Made by a program: the position numbers and the translations under genes
Notes under the pieces: model-generated
The model's input: the letters and a program-made list of their open reading frames with translations, nothing else
Told to the model about the DNA's origin: nothing
Database searches by the model: none
In this document: piece after piece, positions 43,085-57,067 of the stretch
Layout: each line of letters opens with the position of its first letter
How positions within the stretch are numbered: position 1 is the stretch's first letter
Source: Nonomuraea rubra
GTDB taxonomy: Bacteria; Actinomycetota; Actinomycetes; Streptosporangiales; Streptosporangiaceae
Assembly: GCF_014207985.1 (NCBI RefSeq)
Contig: NZ_JACHMI010000001.1
Location: 4,323,001-4,387,000, forward strand
DNA: 64,000 bases
Direction: 5' to 3'

Positions 43085-43978
43085 ATGAGCGATGCACCGA
43101 AGGTGATTGACGCACGTACCGGACCTGGCCGTTCCTGGGGGCGGGAGATCGGCGAGCTCGCCGCGCTGTTTCTCGCGGTCGGCCTGGCGCACCTGCTCGC
43201 GACCCTGCTCGGCCACGGGGAACCTGGGCCCTTCGTCCTGGTCGGGCTGGGGATGGCGCTGATCGCCGGCGCCGCGATCCACAAGCGGCTCGTCCACCGC
43301 CCCGCAGGCTCCGGCTACCGTTCTGGGGCTGGGGCCGGGCCGGCGGGGCGGTTCCGCCGTCGTTCGCGTGCCGGTCGTGAGAAGGCTCCGCTGCCTGTCG
43401 AGGGCGGGGCCGGCGGGCCCATGGCGTTGTGGCGGATCCGGATGCGGGTGGTGGAGCGGCCCGGGCGGCTCGCCACCGTGGCGGCGGCGTTCGGGCGGCT
43501 GGAGTGCAACATCCTGGCGCTGCACATCGCGCCGACCGGCGGCAGCGCCATCACCCCGGCCGGGTGCGACGCGCTCGACGAGTTCGTCATCGAGGCGCCG
43601 CGCGGGCTGGCGCTGGACGCGATGGCCGGGGCGCTGACGGAGGCCGGCGGGCAGGACGTGGTGATCGTGCCCGCGCGGGTGAAGGACCTCACCGACCCCG
43701 GCGTCCAGGCGCTGGTGCTGGCGCAGCGCGTCAGCGACGACCCGGACCGGCTGCCCGAGGCGCTGGCCGAACTGCTGCGCGTCTCGCACGTCGAGTGGCG
43801 GCGGCCCGGCGACACCGTGGACGAGGGCGCCGAGCTGAACACCACCATGGTCATCTCGGTCAACCCCGACCGGGCGCTGCTCGTCCGGCGGCCCGAGCTG
43901 CCGTTCACCCCTACGGAGGCGGCCCGGGCGGCGGCCCTGACAGCCGCCGCCACCCACGCCCGCTACACCGCCCGGTAG
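43085..43978 (+). CDS. membrane protein with C-terminal ACT domain
   Basis: This 297-residue product has two predicted membrane helices near the start (ELAALFLAVGLAHLLATLLG, FVLVGLGMALIAGAAI), a basic linker, then an ACT-type domain (about 113-190: WRIRMRVVERPGRLATVAAAFGRLECNILALHI). A further 100 residues are not recognised. ACT domains bind amino acids, so membrane-linked amino-acid sensing is possible. ATG 43085 is chosen (GGGGGT upstream); ATG 43049 would add 12 residues. It is convergent with the peptidase operon, seven bases apart. Confidence 0.75.
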   Translation: MSDAPKVIDARTGPGRSWGREIGELAALFLAVGLAHLLATLLGHGEPGPFVLVGLGMALIAGAAIHKRLVHRPAGSGYRSGAGAGPAGRFRRRSRAGREKAPLPVEGGAGGPMALWRIRMRVVERPGRLATVAAAFGRLECNILALHIAPTGGSAITPAGCDALDEFVIEAPRGLALDAMAGALTEAGGQDVVIVPARVKDLTDPGVQALVLAQRVSDDPDRLPEALAELLRVSHVEWRRPGDTVDEGAELNTTMVISVNPDRALLVRRPELPFTPTEAARAAALTAAATHARYTAR

Positions 43979-43985
43979 CCGGCGG

Positions 43986-44876
43986 TCAGCGGTAGCCCTT
44001 GGCGAGCACCGCCTCCGTGTCGCGGGTGATCCGGGCCGCGACCTCGGGCGCGAGGGCCAGGCGCGGCGGCCGGCAGGGGCCGCCCCTGCGCCCGGCCAGG
44101 TCCATCGACAGCTTGATCGACTGCACGAACTCGGTCTTGGAGTCCCACCGCAGCAGCGGGTGCAGGTCCCGGTAGATGGGCAGGGCCTTGGCCACGTCGC
44201 CCGCCACCGCCAGGTGGTAGAGCTCCACGGTGGCGCGGGGAATCATGTTCGGGTAGCCGGCGATCCAGCCGACCGCGCCGGCGATGCCCAGCTCCAGCAG
44301 CACGTCGTCCGACCCGACCAGCACGTCCAGCCCGGGCGCCAGCTCGGCGATCTCGTACGCCCTGCGCACGTCCCCGGTGAACTCCTTCACCCCGACGATC
44401 AGCCCCTCCTGGTGCAGCTCCGCCAGCAGCGGGGGCGTCAGGTCCACCTTGGTGTCGATCGGGTTGTTGTAGGCCACCACCGGCAGCCCCGCCCTGGCCA
44501 CCTCGCGGTAGTGGGCGACGACGGCGCGGCGGTCGGCGCGGTAGGCGTTCGGCGGGAGCAGCAGCACCGACGAGGCCCCCGCCTCGGCCGCCTGCTCGGC
44601 CCAGCGCCGCGACTCGGCGGACCCGTACGCGGCCACGCCCGGCATGACGTGGAAGCCGTCGGGCGCGGCCTCGACGGCGGTGCGCACCACGCGGGCGCGT
44701 TCCTCGTCGGTCAGCGTCTGGTACTCGCCGAGCGAGCCGTTGGGGCACACGCCGTGGCAGCCGCCCTCGGCCAGGAAACGCACGTGCTCGGCGTAGGCGT
44801 CGTAGTCGACGGACAGGTCGTCGCCGAAGGGGAGGGCGGTCGCGACGTGCACGCCGTGCCACACAGGGGCGGTCAT
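43986..44876 (-). CDS. DapA-family lyase/deaminase, probable pyrroline-4-hydroxy-2-carboxylate deaminase
   Basis: This 296-residue (beta/alpha)8 class I aldolase-type enzyme has Schiff-base Lys164 in VGVKEFTGD and the partner Tyr136 in AYNNP. It lacks the usual DapA pattern. It resembles the hydroxyproline-pathway branch as I remember it: YNNPIDTKVDLTP, GSDDVLLELGIAGAVGWIAGYPNMIPR, ALPIYRDLHPLLRWDSKTEFVQSIKL, RPPRLAL. That branch converts pyrroline-4-hydroxy-2-carboxylate to 2-oxoglutarate semialdehyde. The start overlaps the aminopeptidase stop (ATGA). It is the last gene of the nine-gene operon. Other DapA-family functions (sialate or keto-acid aldolases) remain possible. Confidence 0.8.
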   Translation of the reverse strand: MTAPVWHGVHVATALPFGDDLSVDYDAYAEHVRFLAEGGCHGVCPNGSLGEYQTLTDEERARVVRTAVEAAPDGFHVMPGVAAYGSAESRRWAEQAAEAGASSVLLLPPNAYRADRRAVVAHYREVARAGLPVVAYNNPIDTKVDLTPPLLAELHQEGLIVGVKEFTGDVRRAYEIAELAPGLDVLVGSDDVLLELGIAGAVGWIAGYPNMIPRATVELYHLAVAGDVAKALPIYRDLHPLLRWDSKTEFVQSIKLSMDLAGRRGGPCRPPRLALAPEVAARITRDTEAVLAKGYR

Positions 44877-46198
44877 ACGTTCTTCTCCTTGGTCCAGTTC
44901 TCCAGCCCGCTCGCGTCGATGGGCAGCGCGGCGGACAGGTTCTCCGCGCCGTCCGCCGTCACGAGCAGGTCGTCCTCGATGCGCACGCCGATGCCGCGCA
45001 GCTCCGGCGGCACCGTGCGGTCGTGCGCGTGGAAGTACAGCCCGGGCTCGACGGTCAGCACCATGCCCGGCGCCATGGCCGCCCCGTGGTACGCCTCGGG
45101 ACGCGAGCGCGCGCAGTCGTGCACGTCCAGGCCCAGATGGTGGCCGATGCCGCAGATCAGGTAGCGGCGGTGGTGCTGGCCGGTGTCCGACAGGGCCTCG
45201 TCCACCGACACCGGCAGCAGCCCCCAGTCATGCAGGCCACGCGCGATGACCTCCATGGCCGCGTGGTGGAAGGCGGTGAACGGGCGGCCGGGCGCCACCT
45301 GCGCGAGCCCGGCCCGGTGCGCCCGTTCCACCAGGTCGTGCACCTGCCGCTGGGCCGGGCTGAACGCGCCGCCGACGGGGAAGGTGCGGGTGACGTCGGC
45401 GGTGTAGTGGGAGCGCGTCTCCACGCCCAGGTCGAGCAGCAGCGCCTCGCCCTCCAGGACGGGGCCGTCGCAGCGCACCCAGTGCAGGGTGGGGGCGTGC
45501 GGGCCGCTGCCGACGATGGAGGCGTAGCCGGGGCCGTTGCCGTACGTCCTGGCGTACCGGTCGAACGTGCCCTGCAGCCACCGCTCGCCCCCGCCGGCCA
45601 CCGCGGCGGGCACCTCGGCGAGCACGGCGGCGAAGCCCTCGACCGTGCGGTCCACGGCCTCGCGCAGCTGCCCGGCCTCCCACTCGTCCTTGATCATGCG
45701 CAGCTCGGCGAGCACCCGGCCGACGTCGTCGGCGGGCACGCCGGGATCGGTGAAGTCGGCCAGCGGCAGCACCTCGACGCCGAGCGCGGCCGACCACTCG
45801 GCGAGCGACGGGGACGGGCCGACCCACAGCTCGCCGTAGGCGGCGTCGGCGAAGAAGCCGGTCTCGCCGGGGCGGGCGGGCGGCGGCAGGTACAGGGTGG
45901 CCGCGCCGTCACGGACGATGGCCACCGCGTGCTCCACCGCGCAGCCGGTCAGCCAGTAGAAGTCGCTGTCCACGCGGAAGTCGTAGGCGGTGTCGTTGCT
46001 GCGGACCGGCGCGTGGCCGGCCTTCACCACGACGGTCCGGCCGGGCAGCGCCGCGGCGAGCCTGGCCCGGTGGGCGGCGGCGGCCTCGGCCGCGCCGGGG
46101 ACCACGTCCGGCGTGCGGGCGGGGGAGTCCCAGCCCTGGGCGATGTACTGGGTGAACGCGGGGATGTCGACCAGTTTGGGCAGCTTGCCGTCACCCAT
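44873..46198 (-). CDS. pepP: Xaa-Pro aminopeptidase (M24B)
   Basis: This cytoplasmic metallopeptidase should remove the N-terminal residue before Pro, and perhaps before Hyp. The 441-residue product has an AMP_N domain (about 35-175, DFYWLTG) and a pita-bread domain. All five metal ligands are visible: Asp in LLLDLGVE, Asp in YTADVTRTF, His in GIGHHLGLDVHD, Glu in LTVEPGLYF, Glu in GVRIEDDLLV. Its start overlaps the upstream hydrolase stop by eight bases. With the iminopeptidase-like gene and an oligopeptide importer it fits breakdown of proline-rich peptides. Confidence 0.93.
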   Translation of the reverse strand: MGDGKLPKLVDIPAFTQYIAQGWDSPARTPDVVPGAAEAAAAHRARLAAALPGRTVVVKAGHAPVRSNDTAYDFRVDSDFYWLTGCAVEHAVAIVRDGAATLYLPPPARPGETGFFADAAYGELWVGPSPSLAEWSAALGVEVLPLADFTDPGVPADDVGRVLAELRMIKDEWEAGQLREAVDRTVEGFAAVLAEVPAAVAGGGERWLQGTFDRYARTYGNGPGYASIVGSGPHAPTLHWVRCDGPVLEGEALLLDLGVETRSHYTADVTRTFPVGGAFSPAQRQVHDLVERAHRAGLAQVAPGRPFTAFHHAAMEVIARGLHDWGLLPVSVDEALSDTGQHHRRYLICGIGHHLGLDVHDCARSRPEAYHGAAMAPGMVLTVEPGLYFHAHDRTVPPELRGIGVRIEDDLLVTADGAENLSAALPIDASGLENWTKEKNV

Positions 46199-47465
46199 CG
46201 GTGAGTCCTCCTCCTAGCTCGCGGACGAGCTGCGTCAGGCGGGCGAAGACGCGTTCCTCGCCGATGCCGTCGTGCTCGTACTCGTTGGTGACCCAGGCCT
46301 GCGTGTTGCCCACCCGGGAGGCGGTGTCCAGTTGCAGGCCCGAGTCGACGTACATGTCGTCGAAGTAGACGGCGGCGGCCACCGGCACGTCGTTGGCGGC
46401 CAGCCGGTCCACGTCGTACAGCGGCGGCCAGTCGTCCCGCTCGGCGAGCAGCTCGACGGCGCCGCGGAAGGGGCGCAGCGCGCGGATCTCCTGGAACATC
46501 CAGGGATAGATCATCTCCCCGGTGAACAGCAGCGGCCTGGCGTCCTCGGCGAAGGCGGGGTGGCAGGCGCGCTCGCGCTGGGCCGCCCACGCGGTCGCGC
46601 CGGCCCCGTGCCCGTAGATGCTCTCCTGCAGCGCGGCGAACAGCGGGTTGTCGGCGTAGGAGGAGCGGGCCAGCACCTGGTGCAGGAACGTCTCCGGCAG
46701 CCCGTCCGATTCGTCCAGCAGCCAGTGCATGCGCTCGTAGCCGGGCTTCATGCCGAAGTCGATGCCCAGCGACTGCAGCCGCCGAACGGTCAGCGTGTCA
46801 CCGTCGGGCAGCAGCACGCCGCCCTCGGCCAGCCGGTCGGCCAGCCGCGCCGTCGTCTCGGCGTGGTGCGGGTAGCGGCGGTAGAACTCGGCGTTCTTGG
46901 CCGCCACCCGCGGGTACGTGCGCCGGTAGACCTCGGCGGCGTCCGGGTCGAGCGACGGCAGGCCGCCCGCCACGTAGCAGGCGCTGAGCCCCTCGGGCGC
47001 GTTCGACAGGTACGTGAGCGTCAGGAAACCCCCGTAGCTCTGCCCCAGCGTCGACCAGCGCCGCCCGCCGAACACCGTCCTGCGCAGGTGCTCCGCGTCG
47101 GCGACGATCGAGTCGGCGCGGAAGCGCGCCAGGTAGTCGGCGCCCTCCCGCGCGCCGAGCGCGCTCATCACCCGGCCGTCGATGCGCGAGCTGCGGCCCG
47201 TGCCCCGCTGGTCGAGCAGGATCACCCGGTACGACTCCAGCGCCCGCCCCAGCCAGCCCGAGGTGCCGACCGGGCGGGGCCCCTTGCCGCCGGGCCCGCC
47301 CTGAAGGTAGAGCAGGCAGGGCAGGTCCTCGCCGTCGCGGGCCGGGTCCACCAGCTCGCGGGCGAACACCGTGATGGTCGCCTCCGGGTCGGCCCAGTCC
47401 AGGGGCACCCGTTCGACGTGGTCGCGCACCCGCATCCCGGGGATGGTGTACGTCGCGGTGATCAA
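46191..47465 (-). CDS. alpha/beta hydrolase, proline iminopeptidase-like (S33)
   Basis: This 424-residue enzyme should remove N-terminal Pro or Hyp from peptides. Family marks are YLQGGPGG (oxyanion region), DQRGTGRS, and the nucleophile Ser143 in GQSYGGF. There is no signal peptide, so it acts on imported peptides. A TTG start at 47465 is chosen because GGAGGGAGAG precedes it and it overlaps the upstream ATPase stop (TTGA). The long open frame further upstream belongs to the ATPase region in another frame. Confidence 0.87.
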   Translation of the reverse strand: MITATYTIPGMRVRDHVERVPLDWADPEATITVFARELVDPARDGEDLPCLLYLQGGPGGKGPRPVGTSGWLGRALESYRVILLDQRGTGRSSRIDGRVMSALGAREGADYLARFRADSIVADAEHLRRTVFGGRRWSTLGQSYGGFLTLTYLSNAPEGLSACYVAGGLPSLDPDAAEVYRRTYPRVAAKNAEFYRRYPHHAETTARLADRLAEGGVLLPDGDTLTVRRLQSLGIDFGMKPGYERMHWLLDESDGLPETFLHQVLARSSYADNPLFAALQESIYGHGAGATAWAAQRERACHPAFAEDARPLLFTGEMIYPWMFQEIRALRPFRGAVELLAERDDWPPLYDVDRLAANDVPVAAAVYFDDMYVDSGLQLDTASRVGNTQAWVTNEYEHDGIGEERVFARLTQLVRELGGGLTDG

Positions 47466-48270
47466 GACCTCTCCCTCCTGCGGCGGTCCCACTCCGGGTC
47501 GATCCGGGGGACGGCCGCCAGCAGCGTGCGCGTGTACTCGTCCTGCGGATCGCGGAAGACCTGCTCGGCGGGCCCGAGCTCGACGATCCGGCCCTTGCTC
47601 ATGACCGCCACCCGGTGCGCGATCTGCCGCACCACGGCCAGGTCGTGGGCGATGAACACGTAGCTGAAGCCGCTCTCGCGCTGCAGCCGCCGCAGCAGCT
47701 CGATCACCTGCGCCTGCACCGACACGTCCAGCGCCGACACGGCCTCGTCGCAGATCACCAGCTTGGGGTTGACGGCCAGCGCGCGGGCGATGCCGATGCG
47801 CTGCGCCTGCCCGCCGGAGAACTGCGCGGGGTAGCGCAGCGAGTGGTCCGGGTTGAGCCCGACCCGCTCCATCAGCTCCTTGGCGTGCTCGCGGCGGCTG
47901 CCCTTGGGGGCGAGGCCCTGGTAGACCAGCGGCGCCATGAGGATGCGCTCCACCGTGTGGCGGGGGTTCAGCGAGGAGAACGGGTCCTGGAAGACGACCT
48001 GCACGTTCGCGCGGAAGCGGGCCAGTGCCGCGCCTCTGGCGTGCGTGACGTCCTCGCCCTCGAACTCCAGCGTGCCCCCGCTCGGGTCCATCAGCTTGGC
48101 GATCATACGGGCGGTGGTGGACTTGCCGCTGCCCGACTCGCCGACGACGGCCAGCGTCTCGCCCAGCCGTACCTCGAAGCCGACCTGGTCCACCGCGGTG
48201 AACTCGGCCCTGGCGCCCAGCGGGCCGCGCGAGACGAACCGCTTGGTCAGGCCCTCGGCACGCAGCAACG

Positions 48271-48274
<4 letters not shown>
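47462..48274 (-). CDS. oligopeptide ABC importer ATPase, DppF/OppF class
   Basis: This 270-residue ATPase of the peptide importer has Walker A GESGSGKST, signature FSGGQAQR, Walker B LVICDEAVSALD, the switch His in FIAHDL, and the C-terminal oligopeptide-type extension PQDEYTRTLLAAVPRIDPEW. It overlaps the DppD-class gene by four bases. It forms a heterodimer with that product. Confidence 0.93.
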
Positions 48275-49067
<793 letters not shown>

Positions 49068-49071
<4 letters not shown>

Positions 49072-50066
49072 GGGGTCGTGATCCTCACTCTCGGGTCCAG
49101 CCTCGTGTAGACGAGGTCCACCAGCACGTTGCCGATCACCACGAAGAACGCCGCCAGCAGCGTGACCGCCATGATGACCGGCTGGTCGTTCTTGGCGATC
49201 GAGTCGGCGGCCATCTTGCCGACGCCGTTCAGCCCGAACACGGTCTCGGTGATCAGCGCGCCGCCGAGCAGCGCGGCGAAGTCCATGCCGAAGATCGTCG
49301 CGATCGGCGTCAGCGCCGGGCGCAGCGCGTGCCTGCGCATGGTCAGCGCCGGGCTGAGGCCCTTCGACCTGGCGGTGCGCATGAAGTTCTCCGCCAGGGT
49401 GTCGATCACGTTGGCGCGGGTGAGCCGGGCGTACAGGCAGGCGTAGCCGGTGGCGAGCACGATCCACGGCATCAGGTACGACTGGAACCACACCACCGGG
49501 TCGTCGGAGAACGCCACGGCCTGCGGGAACGGCAGCACCTGGAGCTGCACGACGAGCACGTACTGCAGGGCCAGCGCCAGCACGTAGTTGGGGATGCTGG
49601 AGCCGCCGAGCGCCAGCCCCATCGCGGTGCGGTCCCACCAGGTGCCCTCCTTGACCGCGCTGAGCAGCCCCGCGGCGATCCCGACGAGCAGCCACAGCAC
49701 GGCCGCGCCGATCGCGACCGTGGCGCTGACCGGCAGCCGCTCCACCACCATGTCCATCACGGACTGGTTGGTCTGGAAGCTGTAGCCCAGGCACGGCGCG
49801 GCGCAGTGCACGAGGTTCGCGCCCTCGCCGTAGTCGCGGCCGGCGAAGATGCCGCCGAGGAAGCCGAGGAACTGCGTCAGGAACGGCTGGTTGAGCCCCA
49901 GCACGTCGCGGATCTGGTCGATGCGCTCCGGCGTGCACGTCTTCCCGCAGATCATCACCGCCGGGTCCGGCTGCAGGGTGAAGAACAGCACGAACGTGAA
50001 CAGGCACACCAGGAAGAGGATCACCACGACGCCGGCCAGGCGTCCGATCACGTAGCGCGCCATCAT
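49068..50066 (-). CDS. oligopeptide ABC importer permease, DppB class
   Basis: This 332-residue membrane subunit starts MMARYVIGRLAGVVVILFLVCLFTF, a typical DppB opening, with about six helices. A periplasmic loop has three Cys (MICGKTCTPERID and CAAPC), and the coupling loop is NFMRTARSKGLSPALTMRRHALRPAL. ATG 50066 overlaps the DppC stop (ATGA). It pairs with the DppC product to form the channel. Confidence 0.92.
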
Positions 50067-50998
50067 GAGGCGTCCCCCGCGTCGAAGGCGGCCCGGATCC
50101 TGTCGCCCAGCACCGTCAGCGACAGCACCGTGAGGAACAGGAACGCGCCGGGAATGACGAAGTACATCGGGTCGACGACGTACCAGCCGACCGAACTGGA
50201 GATCATCTGACCCCACGACGGGGTGGGCGGCGTGACGCCGACCCCCAGGAACGACAGCCCCGCCTCCGTGCCGACGTAGCCGGGCACGGCCAGGGTGGTC
50301 ATCACGATCAGGGAGCTGCGCAGGTTCGGCAGGATCTCCTTGAACACGAGCTGCCCCGTCGAGGCGCCCGAGGCCCGCGCGGCCTCCACGAACTCCCGGT
50401 TCACCAGCGTGAGCGTCTGCCCGCGCACCACCCGGGCCAGGTACGGCCAGCCGAACACGCTGATCACCACGACCAGCAGCACCGGCCGGTTGCCCTGCGG
50501 CAGCGCGGACAGGATCGCGATCATGAAGATGAGCGCGGGGAACGCCATCAGGAAGTCCATGACCCGGCAGATCACCTGGTCCACCCAGCCCTGGTAGAAC
50601 CCGGCCAGCATGCCCAGCACCACGCCGAGCAGCGTGGTGAGCGCCGTGGCGGAGACCGCGATGATCAGGGAGACCCGGGCCCCGTACGCGATGCGGGCCA
50701 GGATGTCGCGGCCGTTCTGCGGCTCGACGCCCAGCAGGTGCTCGGCGCTGATGCCGCCGAGCGAACCGTAGGGCACCCCGCCCAGGTCGGTGTTGACCGC
50801 GGCCGTGTCGAAGTCGTTGGGGCCGTGCCCGGTGATCGCGCTGATCAGCGGCGCGCCGATCGCCATCAGCACGATCAGCGCGAGGTAGGCGCCGCTGACC
50901 ACGGCGCCCCGATCACGCAGCAGCACGCGGAGAACGCGCCGGCCCGAGGTGGCGGGCGCGCCGCCCGCCACCTGCTCTGGATGCGCTGCGACCGTCAT
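50063..50998 (-). CDS. oligopeptide ABC importer permease, DppC class
   Basis: This 311-residue permease has a cytoplasmic N terminus, a first helix near residues 35-55, the DppC-type loop HLLGVEPQNGRDILARIAYGARVSL, and the coupling loop REFVEAARASGASTGQLVFKEILPN. Its ATG follows directly on the binding-protein stop (TAG then ATG). Together with the other three transport genes it completes an ATP-driven peptide importer. Confidence 0.92.
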   Translation of the reverse strand: MTVAAHPEQVAGGAPATSGRRVLRVLLRDRGAVVSGAYLALIVLMAIGAPLISAITGHGPNDFDTAAVNTDLGGVPYGSLGGISAEHLLGVEPQNGRDILARIAYGARVSLIIAVSATALTTLLGVVLGMLAGFYQGWVDQVICRVMDFLMAFPALIFMIAILSALPQGNRPVLLVVVISVFGWPYLARVVRGQTLTLVNREFVEAARASGASTGQLVFKEILPNLRSSLIVMTTLAVPGYVGTEAGLSFLGVGVTPPTPSWGQMISSSVGWYVVDPMYFVIPGAFLFLTVLSLTVLGDRIRAAFDAGDAS

Positions 50999-52693
50999 CT
51001 ACTTCGTCGGCTTCGCCAGCCCGACGGTGACCAGGTCGACGCCGCCGGAGTAGGAGTTGGACTGGTAGGCGCCCGCGATGTTCGCGCCGTTGACCAGGAT
51101 CAGCTTCTCGTAGGCCAGCGGCACGACCGGCGCCAGCTCCATGATCTGCTTGTCCAGCTCGCCGTAGGCCGCGTTGGCCTGCTCGACGTCGGTCATCGCG
51201 GCGATCTCGTCGATCTTGGCGTTGATCGCCTTGTCGTTGAGCTGGGCGAGGTTGGAGTTGCCCTTGGCGGTGATGTTGCGGCCGTCGAACAGCGGCGGCA
51301 GGAACGTCGCGCCGGACGCCCAGTCGGGGCACCAGCCGGTCACGGCCATGTCGCTCTGCTTGGCCGGGGTGCCGATGACCTCGTAGTACGTCGAGGCGTC
51401 GATGTTGTTGATCTTGACGTCGATGCCCACCTGCTTCAGCGCCTCCTGGACGGCGACCGAGACCGCCGCCATCTTCGGCTGCGCCCTGCCGTCCAGGGTC
51501 AGCGAGAACCCGCCCGACAGGCCCGCCTCGGCCAGCAGCTTCTTGGCCTGCTCGACGTTGTGCGGGTACGGGTCGTAGTCCACCCGGCCGGCGACCGTGG
51601 GCGGCTGGATCGAGGTGCCCTTCTGCGCCAGCAGCGACCCGCCCATCGCCGCCACGATGGTGTCCTTGTCGATCGCGTAGTTGATCGCCTGGCGCACGCG
51701 CACGTCGTTCAGGGGCTTCTTGGTGGTGTTCAGGCCCATGTAGGTCGTGCAGCCGTTGAGCCCGGACAGCGTGCGCGCCTTGATCTGCGGCGTCTGCACC
51801 CGCGCCACGGTCGCCGCCTGGATGCTCGGGCCGAGCGCGTCGGCGTCGGTGCCTTGCCCGGCCAGCAGGCGCTCGTCGATCGTGGCCGCGTCCAGGCCGA
51901 ACGTCCACTCGAACGCGTCCGGCTTGGCCGTGCGCACCTGGTCGGTCTCCTGCTTCCACTGCGGGTTGCGCACCAGCTTCAGCGACGCGTTGCGCTGGTA
52001 GCTCGCGACCTTGTACGGCCCGCTCGCGATCGGCTTGGTGTCGAACGCCGCGCCCGCCCCGGTGCCCTTGGGGAACGGGGTGAAGTTCGCCAGCGCCAGC
52101 GCGCTCGGGAAGTCGGCGTACGGCTTCTTGAGGTGGATGACGACCGTCTTGTCGTCCGGCGTCTCGATCGTGTCCAGGTCGCCCGACAGGTACGGCCCCT
52201 TGTAGTCCTTCGGCGCGTCGAGCAGCAGCTTGCCGTACGGCGAGCCGATGCCCGCCTCCGGGTCGAAGGCCCGCGAGAAGCCGAACTTGACCGCCTCGCT
52301 GGTGATCGGCGTGCCGTCCTCGAAGAAGAGGTTGTCCTTCAGCGTGAACGTCCACGTCTTGGCGTCGCTGGACGGCGTGCCCGTGTCGGTCGCGAGGTCC
52401 GGCACGATCTTCGTGCCCTCGGCCCCCGGGCCGGCGCCGAACGTCGTCAGCCCCCGGTAGATGAGCCGGTAGAAGTTGTTCACGCCGCCGTCGAAGCCGC
52501 GTACCGGGTCCAGGTGGGAGAAGTCCGAGATGGCCAGGACGCGTACCGTGCCGCCCGTCGCGGGGGCCGCCGATGAGCCGGCCGCGCCGGTGCCGGTGCC
52601 CGGGCCTGGGGCCGTGCCGCCGCCACCGCCGCACGCCGACAGTGCCAGCACGGCGGTCATCGTGACGCTCGTGAGCGCCGCCGATCTCCTCAT
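50999..52693 (-). CDS. peptide-binding lipoprotein of ABC importer (SBP family 5)
   Basis: This 564-residue extracellular binding protein has signal peptide with lipobox ALSAC, then a Gly/Ala/Ser linker. The family-5 fold includes PDLATDTGTPSSDAKTWTFTLKDNLFFEDGTPITSEAVKFGFSRAFDP and NDVRVRQAINYAIDKDTI. It should select the peptide or glycopeptide to import. Its ATG overlaps the GH127 stop (ATGA), which ties uptake to the arabinosidase. Ligand specificity cannot be read from sequence; family-5 proteins also bind nickel, opines or oligosaccharides. Confidence 0.92.
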   Translation of the reverse strand: MRRSAALTSVTMTAVLALSACGGGGGTAPGPGTGTGAAGSSAAPATGGTVRVLAISDFSHLDPVRGFDGGVNNFYRLIYRGLTTFGAGPGAEGTKIVPDLATDTGTPSSDAKTWTFTLKDNLFFEDGTPITSEAVKFGFSRAFDPEAGIGSPYGKLLLDAPKDYKGPYLSGDLDTIETPDDKTVVIHLKKPYADFPSALALANFTPFPKGTGAGAAFDTKPIASGPYKVASYQRNASLKLVRNPQWKQETDQVRTAKPDAFEWTFGLDAATIDERLLAGQGTDADALGPSIQAATVARVQTPQIKARTLSGLNGCTTYMGLNTTKKPLNDVRVRQAINYAIDKDTIVAAMGGSLLAQKGTSIQPPTVAGRVDYDPYPHNVEQAKKLLAEAGLSGGFSLTLDGRAQPKMAAVSVAVQEALKQVGIDVKINNIDASTYYEVIGTPAKQSDMAVTGWCPDWASGATFLPPLFDGRNITAKGNSNLAQLNDKAINAKIDEIAAMTDVEQANAAYGELDKQIMELAPVVPLAYEKLILVNGANIAGAYQSNSYSGGVDLVTVGLAKPTK

Positions 52694-54612
52694 TTCGCCT
52701 TCTTTCCGTAGGTTGCGTCGGGGGTCCTGACCCAGACCCGCATGGCTTCGGGGCCGCGGTTGCCCCAGAGGAAGTAGGGGACGAAGGTCGCCGTGACCGT
52801 CGTCTCCGGGAGCGCCTGCTCCAGCGGGAGCTCCGGGTAGAGCTCGGCGGAGGGCGGGGGAGCGGCGGTGGCGGTGAGGGTCAGCACCACGGCCTCGTCC
52901 CGCCGGCCGATGTTCGCGTTGACAATGTCGGGTACGCCGATCACCAGGTCGTCCACGGCGGCGTCCGGGCTGTCCTGTTGCTCCACGCAGTAGACGAGCG
53001 GGCCGCGGGCCAGGCTGACCGTGCCCCTGGTGGCGTCGAGGTGGGGGTGCGAGCCGTGCGCCCTGACCGGCATCGGCAGCGTGAGCCGTACCTCGTCGCC
53101 GGCCTTCCACCGGCGCTCGACGCGCAGCCAGCCGTCCACCGGCTCTGCCACCAGCGGCTCGCCGTTGATCGTGAGCGTCGCGCCGCGGGACCAGGCCGGG
53201 ATGCGCAGGAGCAGCCCGTACGGCCCGTCCGGCGCCCGCTCGACCGTGAGCCGCACGTCGCCGTCCCACGGGTAGGCGGTCTCCACCGCCAGGTCCAGCT
53301 CCGTGCCCTCGATCCGGCCCTCGGCGTAGGCGGCGACCAGCAGCGCGCCGTCCCGCTCGGCCGCCACGTAGTCGGCGAGCTGGGCCATCCAGCGCACGAT
53401 GTTCGGCGGGCAGCACGGGCAGGTGAACCAGGCGCGGCGCAGCGGCTCGCCGCCGGCCTCCGCGCCGCTGCGCTGCTCGTGGTCGGGACGGCGCTGCAGC
53501 GGGTTGTCGTAGAAGAACGCCCGGCCGTCCGCCGACAGGCCCACGGCGTAGGCGTTGTAGAGCACGCGCTCGAACACGTCGAGGTACGTGGCGCCGCCCG
53601 TGGCCAGGAACATCCGCCAGGCCCACTGCATGACCGCGATGGCCGCGCAGGTCTCGCTGTAGGCGCGCTCGGACGGCAGCTCGTACCGGTCGCCGATCGC
53701 CTCGTCGGAGTGGCGGCTGCCGAGGCCGCCGGTGACGTACAGCTTGGTCGCCACCATGTCGTCCCAGAGCCGCTCCAGCGCCTCGAACAGCGACCGGTCG
53801 CCGGTCTCCAGGTGCACGTCGGCCGCGCCGGCCGCCAGGTACGCCATCCGCACCGCGTGCCCCGTCACCGACGGCAGCTCGCGGAAGGGCAGGTGGTCCT
53901 GGAAGTAGTCGCTGGCGAAGATGCTGTGCTTGAGCTGCCCGGAGCCGCGCCGGTCCACGAACGCGGCGGCCAGGTCGAGATAGGCACGCCGCCCGGTCTC
54001 CCTGAACAGCTCGACCAGCGCCATCTCCACCTCGGGATGGCCGCACACCCCCTCGTCCGCGAACCGCTCCACGACCAGGTCCGCGAACCGCCGCGCCACC
54101 CGCAGCAGCCGATCGTCGCCCATCCGGCGCGCCGCGGCCACGGCGGCCTGGACGAGGTGACCCAGGTTGTACAGCTCGTGCCCCCAGGACAGGTCCTCCC
54201 ACGGCTTCTTCGTGGCGGCCGGGTCCTGGAAGAAGGAGTTGAGGTAGCCGTCCTCGGCCTGGACCCGCTCCAGGAGGCCGACGACCTCCTCGAAGAACTC
54301 CCGTACGGGCTCCCCCGCGCGGCCGTCGCCCAGCTCGTAGGCCAGCCCTTCCAGGGTCTTGTACAGGTCGGTGTCCAGGAACGGGTAGCGGCCGCGGTAC
54401 GGCGCCGGGTCCTGCTCCAGGAGGCGGCCCAGGTTGGCGACGTTGCCCGCCGCGCGGAGCTGCTCGATGGTGTGCGGGATCGTGGCCGTGCCGTTCCGGC
54501 GCTGCCAGTGGTGCAGCAGACCACCGGTGATCCGCACGCCCGGGAGCGGCCGTACGGCCCCGGCGGACGTGCGTACGGCACCGGACAGCGGCTTGACCTG
54601 CTTAGACGTCAT
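52690..54612 (-). CDS. beta-L-arabinofuranosidase, glycoside hydrolase family 127
   Basis: This 640-residue enzyme resembles HypBA1 of Bifidobacterium longum, which cuts beta-L-arabinofuranose from hydroxyproline-linked chains. It has HELYNLGHLVQAAVAAARR, GHPEVEMALVELFRETG and YELPSERAYSETCAAI. Glu320, Cys322 and the Cys400/Cys401 pair match the family's zinc-thiolate site, with Cys400 in the nucleophile position. There is no signal peptide, so it acts inside the cell on imported substrate. ATG 54612 begins MTSKQVKPL; a longer frame to 54675 is unlikely. It is the first gene of the nine-gene operon. Confidence 0.92.
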   Translation of the reverse strand: MTSKQVKPLSGAVRTSAGAVRPLPGVRITGGLLHHWQRRNGTATIPHTIEQLRAAGNVANLGRLLEQDPAPYRGRYPFLDTDLYKTLEGLAYELGDGRAGEPVREFFEEVVGLLERVQAEDGYLNSFFQDPAATKKPWEDLSWGHELYNLGHLVQAAVAAARRMGDDRLLRVARRFADLVVERFADEGVCGHPEVEMALVELFRETGRRAYLDLAAAFVDRRGSGQLKHSIFASDYFQDHLPFRELPSVTGHAVRMAYLAAGAADVHLETGDRSLFEALERLWDDMVATKLYVTGGLGSRHSDEAIGDRYELPSERAYSETCAAIAVMQWAWRMFLATGGATYLDVFERVLYNAYAVGLSADGRAFFYDNPLQRRPDHEQRSGAEAGGEPLRRAWFTCPCCPPNIVRWMAQLADYVAAERDGALLVAAYAEGRIEGTELDLAVETAYPWDGDVRLTVERAPDGPYGLLLRIPAWSRGATLTINGEPLVAEPVDGWLRVERRWKAGDEVRLTLPMPVRAHGSHPHLDATRGTVSLARGPLVYCVEQQDSPDAAVDDLVIGVPDIVNANIGRRDEAVVLTLTATAAPPPSAELYPELPLEQALPETTVTATFVPYFLWGNRGPEAMRVWVRTPDATYGKKAK

Positions 54613-54645
54613 GAACCTTCCCAGTAATGTGTGGCATTGCACTGA

Positions 54646-54675
54646 ACGATAGGTGTCTGGGAGGTGTGTTGCCAA
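54646..54675 (-). promoter_or_regulatory. candidate promoter of the nine-gene glycopeptide operon
   Basis: On the minus strand TTGGCA and TATCGT are 18 bases apart, about 34 bases before ATG 54612. A weak mirror of CAGTAATG and CATT-GC-ACTG lies between promoter and gene and might be an operator. Confidence 0.5.
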
Positions 54676-54742: not shown

Positions 54743-54755
54743 TACAGTGGCGCGG
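54743..54755 (+). promoter_or_regulatory. candidate leaderless promoter of the P-loop gene
   Basis: TACAGT lies six bases before GTG 54755, with no ribosome binding site. Confidence 0.5.
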
Positions 54756-56326: not shown

Positions 56327-57067
56327 TCAGCGCTCGATGAGCGTGACCTCCAGGGAGTAGTGGGAGGCGCGGTAGACGTGCGAGCCGTGCTCGACGGCGC
56401 GGCCCTGGTCGTCGTAGGTGGTGCGGACCATCGTCAGCAGCGGCGCCCCGCGGCGCTCCTCCAGCAGCCGGGCCTCGGCCTGGGTGGCCGCCCTGGCGCC
56501 GATGCGCTGGTTGGCGACCCGCATCCGCACCCCCGCGCCGCGCAGCAGCTCGTACAGGCCGCGCCCCTCCAGGTCGGCCGGCGTGAGCGGGGCCAGCCCC
56601 TGCGGCAGCCAGTTGTGCAGGACGGCCAGCGGCTCACCGGCCGCGAACCGCACCCGCTCCAGGTAGAGGATCTGCGCGCCAGGCTGCACGCCCAGGATCG
56701 GCGCGATCTCCTCCTCCACCGGCCGCGACTCCAGCGCCAGCACCTGCGTGGCCGGCTCCTGACCCGCCCTGCGCAGGTCGTCGTAGAGGCTCGTCAGCTC
56801 GACCGAGCGCTTGACCTGGCCGTGCACCACCTGGGTGCCGACACCGCGCTTGCGCACCAGCAGGCCCTTGTCCACCAGGTACTGGATCGCCTGCCGGATC
56901 GTGGGCCGCGACAGGCCCAGCTTGTCGGCCAGCAGGATCTCGTTGTCCAGCCGCGAGCCGGGGGCCAGGTCGCCGCGGCGGATCGCCTCCGCGATCTGCT
57001 CGGCCACCTGGAAATAGAGCGGCACGGGACTGGACCGGTCCAGGTCGATGGCCAGGTTCGCGGTCAT
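56327..57067 (-). CDS. GntR family regulator with UTRA domain
   Basis: This 246-residue HutC-type regulator has a winged helix in residues about 10-75 (PLYFQVAEQIAEAIRRGDLAPGSRLDNEILLADKLGLSRPTIRQAIQYLVDKGLLVRKRGVGTQV). The UTRA ligand domain follows (YLERVRFAAGEPLAVLHNWLP, MVRTTYDDQGRAVEHGSHVYRASHYSLEV). Such proteins sense sugars, phosphorylated amino sugars or amino-acid derivatives. A palindromic site at 57094-57103 upstream suggests autoregulation. No obvious metabolic target is adjacent. Confidence 0.92.
   Translation of the reverse strand: MTANLAIDLDRSSPVPLYFQVAEQIAEAIRRGDLAPGSRLDNEILLADKLGLSRPTIRQAIQYLVDKGLLVRKRGVGTQVVHGQVKRSVELTSLYDDLRRAGQEPATQVLALESRPVEEEIAPILGVQPGAQILYLERVRFAAGEPLAVLHNWLPQGLAPLTPADLEGRGLYELLRGAGVRMRVANQRIGARAATQAEARLLEERRGAPLLTMVRTTYDDQGRAVEHGSHVYRASHYSLEVTLIER

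Follow-up and report, generated by a model that had tools for sequence, protein, structure and literature searches.

What does a GH127 glycosidase do at the head of an operon that otherwise encodes an oligopeptide-type importer, two peptidases and a DapA-family enzyme? The question is raised by a locus of Nonomuraea rubra within the 64,000-nucleotide stretch C1:4323001-4387000 of the 12.9-Mb genome (hereafter the window), in which nine genes lie in a run on the minus strand between positions 43986 and 54612. Pfam searches and the reading of open reading frames (ORFs) place GH127 first and the DapA-family gene last. An earlier note on this DNA had described the operon as resembling a complete import and breakdown route for arabinosylated hydroxyproline (Hyp) peptides from plant extensins. 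Plant walls and some peptide hormones contain arabinosylated hydroxyproline. Judging from its gene content and its relatives, the operon is quite likely an uptake and catabolic module for Hyp-containing peptides that still bear beta-L-arabinofuranose, and it is probably under the control of a HypR-type repressor.

In this scheme, the SBP_5 lipoprotein and the Dpp/Opp-type importer would take in short Hyp-peptides or Hyp-glycopeptides, and a cytoplasmic GH127 would cleave arabinose from Hyp. The M24 aminopeptidase P would remove the residue before Pro/Hyp and the S33 enzyme the N-terminal Pro/Hyp, in alternation. Free Hyp would pass to an epimerase and a D-Hyp dehydrogenase encoded elsewhere in the genome, and the operon DapA-family enzyme would then convert pyrroline-4-hydroxy-2-carboxylate to 2-oxoglutarate semialdehyde by deamination. 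A further enzyme would be required for the terminal alpha-1,3-linked arabinose of Ara4-Hyp, as is the case in Xanthomonas (PMC6085000; statements on published work, here and below, refer to excerpts of the cited papers). We regard an arabinosylated peptide as the best inference for the ligand. Extensin, the source proposed in the earlier note, is one candidate among others, since other arabinosylated Hyp peptides fit equally well.

All nine genes are present with the families claimed, and they are joined by overlaps of 0-8 bases (4, 0, 4, 4, 4, about 4, 8 and 4 in gene order from GH127). GH127 is the sole glycosidase among the nine proteins in Pfam; the importer is of the SBP_5/Dpp type, and neither a sugar-type importer nor GH121 is found among them. 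The middle (79 bits) and C-terminal (71 bits) domains of GH127 score over cut-off, as does the catalytic domain. In a hand-counted alignment to 3wkw, all five HypBA1 residues Glu322, Glu338, Cys340, Cys417 and Cys418 are kept; in HypBA1 they make up the Cys nucleophile, the Glu acid/base and the Cys3-Glu zinc site. Cys417 and Glu322 have nucleophile and acid/base roles, respectively, in HypBA1 (PMC8106489). C1 contains 11 matches to PF07944 (L001-L008 and three weaker ones); GH127-family genes number at least eight, one of them in the operon.

The S33 protein carries the nucleophile motif GQSYGG. Its closest solved relatives are 8jgn (376 bits) and 8jgm (375 bits), the nearest protein being AT3g61540 (376 bits), and its closest named relatives are from Nonomuraea. 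In the M24 protein, the M24 and AMP_N domains are both recognized, and the best Protein Data Bank (PDB) matches are aminopeptidases P, with 4pv4 the nearest. The binding protein has a lipobox, LALSAC, as read by eye. In a crude hydrophobicity scan of relatives, a signal-peptide-like stretch was found in all 32 binding proteins but in none of 23 GH127, 74 S33 and 34 M24 proteins. Cleavage of both sugar and peptide is therefore predicted to be cytoplasmic and to follow import.

The DapA-family enzyme and hydroxyproline genes elsewhere in the genome

A second cluster of the same genome (L012, C1:4.117-4.125 Mb; hereafter the Hyp cluster) encodes DAO-type, SoxA-type and DapA-family proteins, a GntR/FCD regulator, and hydroxyproline-epimerase-like, trans-3-Hyp-dehydratase-like and ornithine-cyclodeaminase-type reductase proteins. 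Its protein P0001 has GntR and FCD domains and is thus of the FadR type by its domains. The epimerase-like, dehydratase-like and reductase-like genes lie at L012:6993-14782; with this gene set, both Hyp isomers may be used.

The operon DapA is 75% identical (73% by BLASTP) to the DapA of the Hyp cluster but 26-30% identical to seven other paralogues of the genome, as judged from 9 of the 11 own-genome matches. In a tree of 39 rows that includes no biochemically proven deaminase, it falls with the Hyp-cluster copy in a group of 22 (support 99/100), which also contains copies beside HypE in Micromonospora, Streptomyces, Actinacidiphila and Microbacterium. By identity and tree alike, the enzyme thus falls with the DapA proteins of Hyp clusters and away from the other paralogues of the genome, in line with the deaminase role that had been proposed for it. 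Its top PDB match is 3na8 (125 bits), presumably P. aeruginosa PA1254, and K164 is the candidate Schiff-base lysine by eye.

These placements bear on an alternative in which the DapA-family enzyme serves arabinose oxidation, as an L-2-keto-3-deoxyarabonate dehydratase or aldolase, and not hydroxyproline. GH127 would release arabinose; the arabinose-oxidation enzyme and the Hyp deaminase are members of one superfamily, that of DapA, and 2-oxoglutarate semialdehyde can be a common point of the two routes. However, the close identity to the Hyp-cluster copy, the grouping with HypE-linked proteins and the presence of an arabinose isomerase route (L-arabinose isomerase at C1:2.67 Mb) make this barely credible.

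A semialdehyde-dehydrogenase-like enzyme is encoded at C1:10.09 Mb and is 47% identical to its counterpart in the Plantibacter cluster described below. No NCBIfam name was obtained for this aldehyde dehydrogenase at the E-value used, and its PDB relatives, 3v4c and 1eyy, are compatible with a semialdehyde dehydrogenase without proving one. Epimerase-like, D-Hyp-dehydrogenase-type and semialdehyde-dehydrogenase-like proteins are therefore all encoded in the genome, where the earlier note had expected the rest of the pathway. Its word "complete" does not hold for the operon alone: the other Hyp-pathway families are present in the genome, but the epimerase and dehydrogenase genes lie at a distance of about 250 kb and the semialdehyde dehydrogenase gene at one of about 5.7 Mb. 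The latter gene adjoins another DapA paralogue (L014; C1:10087968-10091140), which suggests that its last step may be common to a sugar-acid route.

Conservation in relatives and the HypR-like operator

The locus survey was anchored on S33 and covered the best 80 of at least 570 relatives with 10-kb flanks; the loci were thus selected for S33 likeness and are not a random sample. GH127 is present in 32 loci, the importer (at least four of five parts) in 41, M24 of either type in 41 and a DapA relative in 27. A proline-racemase-family enzyme occurs in 21 of the 80 loci, a DAO-type dehydrogenase in 18, a GntR protein resembling P0001 in 24 (45-66% identity, with FCD confirmed by Pfam in L048) and a KGSADH-like protein in eight. 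Three of the 21 proline-racemase-family loci are in Rhizobium, and the one tested is a trans-3-Hyp dehydratase. The GH127 loci comprise 24 at 58-92% identity in eight actinobacterial genera (Nonomuraea, Sphaerisporangium, Kribbella, Streptomyces, Okibacterium, Agromyces, Plantibacter and Isoptericola) and eight at 33-35% in Alphaproteobacteria.

Four of the 80 loci (L059, L061, L093 and L096, in Plantibacter, Okibacterium and Agromyces; L093 and L096 are nearly identical) unite all genes on one strand over about 18 kb: GH127, the five importer parts, S33, M24, GntR, DAO, SoxA-like, DapA, HypE and KGSADH-like. The operon is thus conserved in relatives, a point that the earlier note had proposed to check, and these four loci join it to counterparts of the entire Hyp pathway. 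GntR and some Hyp genes are divergent neighbours in Streptomyces L072 and Isoptericola L099. Micromonospora L040 has the order S33-M24-DapA-HypE-GntR-DAO-SoxA-KGSADH, with GH127 and the importer not found, and N. wenchangensis L046 has an operator followed by S33-M24-DAO-SoxA. Among 394 genomes sampled from the class, 28 had S33 at an E-value no higher than 1e-120, and six, N. rubra included, had a GH127 with at least 60% identity. Five of these six carry S33 on the same strand at a distance of 5.2-5.5 kb; in the sixth (G342), the importer and M24 follow GH127, and S33 is absent. The nine-gene arrangement is not due to chance.

The solved structure closest to the binding protein is 2wok (278 bits), annotated as "clavulanic acid biosynthesis oligopeptide binding protein 2", and the top structural matches are mostly peptide-binding proteins. 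The agrocinopine-binding SBP_5 protein AccA is among the weaker matches, and SBP_5 proteins can bind such non-peptides, so the importer might instead carry arabinosides while the peptidases do housekeeping. We consider this very unlikely given the best structural matches, the single copy of S33 in the genome, and the finding that the importer accompanies M24 in 35 loci but GH127 in 24. In a binding-protein tree of 39 rows, a clade of 25 (support 96/100) contains 23 of the 24 proteins from GH127-carrying operons. The other two members come from loci in which GH127 was not detected; in one of these the contig stops short of the GH127 position. Outside the clade are the Microbacterium proteins from loci without GH127 and the Isoptericola protein, whose operon has GH127. 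The clade fits a difference in ligand, but also an operon that descends as a unit.

Upstream of GH127, directly after a -10-like hexamer and thus in the position expected of a repressor site, lies a HypR-like operator, the first 21 bases of which are identical in all 10 Nonomuraea and Sphaerisporangium loci with GH127. TTGGCA and TATGGT-like hexamers are kept in the Nonomuraea relatives. The operator core has two mismatches to the S. coelicolor HypR motif CTNTGC(A/C)ATGTCAC, and its copy of TGCAATGYCAC is the only one in the 12.9-Mb genome. Fragments bound by S. coelicolor HypR contain the cores TACAATGTCAC, TGCAATGTCAC, TGCCATGTCAC and TGCAATGTGAC (PMC6608401, Table 1). The search pattern TGC[AC]ATG[TC][CG]AC, which represents TGCAATGTCAC, TGCCATGTCAC, TGCAATGTGAC and the window form, was run against the 80 loci (1.66 Mb) and gave 28 sites in 24 of them. 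Twenty-five of these are no more than 130 bases from the extrapolated GH127, S33 or DapA start, four of them just inside the start owing to a late alignment start. The reversed motif gave no site, and 60 permuted motifs averaged 4.5 sites, with 22 as the highest count. The operator precedes GH127 in 16 of the 24 actinobacterial loci and S33 in five loci without detected GH127 (L027, L036, L042, L046 and L053). The exact core TGCAATGTCAC stands before GH127 or S33 in seven of 10 Kribbella loci, and in each of these seven the GntR relative is present as well. A relative of HypR would probably repress the operon.

Several observations weigh against the glycopeptide reading. For the enzymes, GH127 scores higher against 4qjy (365 bits) and 6ex6 (332 bits) than against HypBA1 (296 bits). 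The S33 protein falls under the NCBIfam prolyl aminopeptidase cut-offs (best model, 35 bits versus 260) and is nearest, among solved structures, to AT3g61540, so its prolyl aminopeptidase activity is deduced from the family. The epimerase-like protein of the Hyp cluster is just below its cut-off (359 of 376 bits). For the operator, the exact pattern is missing from eight of the 24 actinobacterial GH127 promoters, which show variants, and by the published motif alone the operator is no better than chance, with two matches in the window against 1.5 expected. The Hyp-cluster promoter has just the right half of the operator; for the full 24-mer, a match this good is expected 0.08 times in a promoter of its size. 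For conservation, GH127 was not found in 48 of the 80 S33 loci (the upstream sequence of five of the 80 is too short to reveal it in the arrangement of the window), and DapA or other parts are absent from the flanks in seven Nonomuraea and seven other relatives. M24 is present in all 17 loci that have the importer but not GH127, so the peptide module does not require arabinose. In L064, the one Rhizobium locus scanned, the GH127 beside S33 sits in an operon with a LacI/MalK-type sugar importer.

The last finding suits another explanation, in which the importer takes bare Pro/Hyp peptides, derived from collagen or from plant glycoprotein that has been deglycosylated, and GH127 acts on beta-arabinosides (beta-Ara2 or Ara-Hyp) with an entry route of their own. 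Co-expression of the genes would then reflect the common origin of both substrates in plant hydroxyproline-rich glycoproteins. Microbacterium has the importer and M24 in seven of eight loci, six of which also have DapA, HypE and DAO, whereas GH127 was found in none of the eight at the threshold used (L088 has a 26% match). In addition, HypBA1 of B. longum acts on imported beta-Ara2 (PMC8106489). We nevertheless think this explanation unlikely, since the importer operon begins with GH127, which overlaps the next gene by four bases, no sugar importer is present in the operon, and 23 of the 24 binding proteins of GH127 operons cluster apart from those of Microbacterium without GH127.

It is also conceivable that GH127 acts on some other beta-arabinoside or an acid sugar, for example of rhamnogalacturonan-II, and that its position in the operon is accidental. 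The sole NCBIfam match of the protein is to aceric acid hydrolase, at 396 bits and hence below the cut-off of 950. Against such an accident stand the proximity of GH127 to S33 in eight actinobacterial genera and the operator in front of most of these genes; we give the idea very little credence.

The published HypR motif has one two-mismatch match in the Hyp cluster (0.55 expected), and it is inside a gene. The link between the operon and Hyp-cluster promoters therefore depends on the right-half match, which is weak by itself. The right-half pattern, itself derived from the two sites it found, occurs at two mismatches in 14 places of the genome, 12 of them further loci, compared with nine for the reversed control. 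ORF reading of six of the 12 revealed nothing linkable to Hyp.

Some loci of the survey are of interest in their own right. In the Rhizobium-type loci L064, L066, L067, L068, L071 and L076, S33 adjoins a GH127 at 34-35% identity. By Pfam, the GH127 of L064 stands with a LacI regulator, SBP_1 and a MalK-type importer, a second way to pair S33 and GH127. Martelella mediterranea (L078:9473-20728) carries S33 and a distantly related GH127 next to Opp importer genes, an M24 of the Creatinase_N type and a member of the DapA family; this may be a remote assembly of the same functions. Streptomyces sp. NBC_01669 (L072:9855-11128) has a binding-protein remnant (66% identity, 99 bits) directly before S33, the S33 match begins at residue 59, and no importer follows GH127, so that the remnant looks like a deletion scar. 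Nonomuraea sp. SYSU D8015 (L032) keeps the importer, S33 and M24, and GH127 was not found upstream though the sequence is present there; a loss of GH127 is possible.

Comparison with known systems

The enzyme families are all known; their combination in one operon was not found described. In the open-access literature, judged mostly by titles and the openings of abstracts, no report joined these parts. The closest system for the sugar is that of B. longum, with HypBA1, HypBA2, HypAA and a beta-Ara2 importer, in which a cytoplasmic GH127 likewise works downstream of an ABC importer, its substrate being arabinose that stems from hydroxyproline-rich glycoproteins (PMC8106489, PMC7263609, PMC5928203). 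There, however, the sugar is released outside the cell and the disaccharide is taken up by a sugar importer. The N. rubra operon differs in its peptide-type importer, its peptidases and DapA-family enzyme, and in having GH127 as the only glycosidase. In Xanthomonas euvesicatoria (XeHypBA1, XeHypBA2 and XeHypAA), a GH127 homologue also frees arabinose from Ara-Hyp, but it is reported to be extracellular (data not shown by those authors), and the word "transporter" is absent from the text (PMC6085000).

For the amino acid, the HypR regulon of S. coelicolor (SCO6289-SCO6293 and hypR) shares Hyp catabolism, a predicted DapA-family deaminase and a FadR-type GntR repressor with the operator core TGCAATGTCAC (PMC6608401). 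Like the N. rubra Hyp cluster, this set has DAO-type, SoxA-type, DapA-family, epimerase and FadR-type regulator genes, and deletion of the S. coelicolor epimerase gene abolished growth on Hyp (PMC6608401). Unlike the present operon, the regulon has no entry in its table for an oligopeptide importer, GH127 or proline peptidase, and the text contains no words beginning with arabino, extensin, peptide or aminopeptidase (PMC6608401). An in silico model of Latescibacteria includes GH127 acting on extensin and, separately, oligopeptide uptake by ABC transporters; sugar and peptide are handled apart, and the excerpt describes no operon that joins them (PMC4454575). A genome-neighbourhood study of proline racemases mentions peptidase and transporter families beside some relatives, and no word beginning with arabino occurs in its text (PMC4113996).

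In the excerpts consulted, the published bacterial routes treat sugar and amino acid separately: Bifidobacterium imports the sugar, and the HypR regulon handles the amino acid. If our reading is true, a conserved operon that imports the glycopeptide and takes it apart, sugar and peptide alike, in the cytoplasm would represent a new catabolic strategy. It would also point to a role for a conserved set of importers and S33 enzymes, with ligands, enzymes and a regulator that are directly testable. The S33 protein of the operon presumably resembles prolyl aminopeptidase 2 (MEROPS S33.008, P46547). That S33 enzyme releases N-terminal proline, and the excerpt makes no link to glycosidases or Hyp catabolism (PMC9147577).

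Arabinosylated hormones offer a further, rather improbable, use for the module: it may also scavenge plant glycopeptide signals, in addition to wall debris, so that soil or plant-associated carriers could remove and inactivate CLV3/CLE2 and PSY1 near roots. These hormones are small secreted peptides that bear one Hyp-Ara3 chain (PMC8012813), and they are plausibly of the right size for an oligopeptide importer.

Coordinates and flanks of the operon

Table 1. Genes and promoter elements of the operon, in window coordinates.
Feature	Position	Strand	Description	Domains and scores
GH127	52690-54612	-	640 aa, first gene	PF07944 286 bits
SBP_bac_5 lipoprotein	50999-52693	-	564 aa	PF00496 282 bits
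Dpp/OppC-type permease	50063-50998	-		PF00528, PF12911
Dpp/OppB-type permease	49068-50066	-		PF00528, PF19300
Dpp/OppD-type ATPase	48271-49071	-		PF00005, PF08352
Dpp/OppF-type ATPase	47462-48274	-		PF00005, PF08352
S33 alpha/beta hydrolase, prolyl-aminopeptidase-like	46191-47465	-	about 424 aa, likely TTG start	
Xaa-Pro aminopeptidase, M24 with AMP_N	44873-46198	-		PF00557 158 bits, PF05195 63 bits
DapA-family protein, predicted 1-pyrroline-4-hydroxy-2-carboxylate deaminase	43986-44876	-		PF00701 153 bits
HypR-like operator CAGTGCAATGCCACACATTACTGG	54621-54644	-	upstream of GH127	
Putative promoter, read by eye	54646-54675	-	-35 TTGGCA 54675-54670, -10 TATCGT 54651-54646, spacer 18	

Position 47468 was rejected as the start of S33, as its codon is GTC and not a start; the TTG at 47465 is the likely start instead, with an overlap of four bases. 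A GntR gene at 56327-57067 was likewise rejected as an operon-specific regulator, since it is of the UTRA (HutC-like) type and other ORFs intervene. Downstream of the operon, an ORF on the opposite strand ends at 43978, and the DapA gene lies seven bases further. Upstream of GH127, an ORF in the opposite direction starts at 54755 and contains a P-loop motif by eye.

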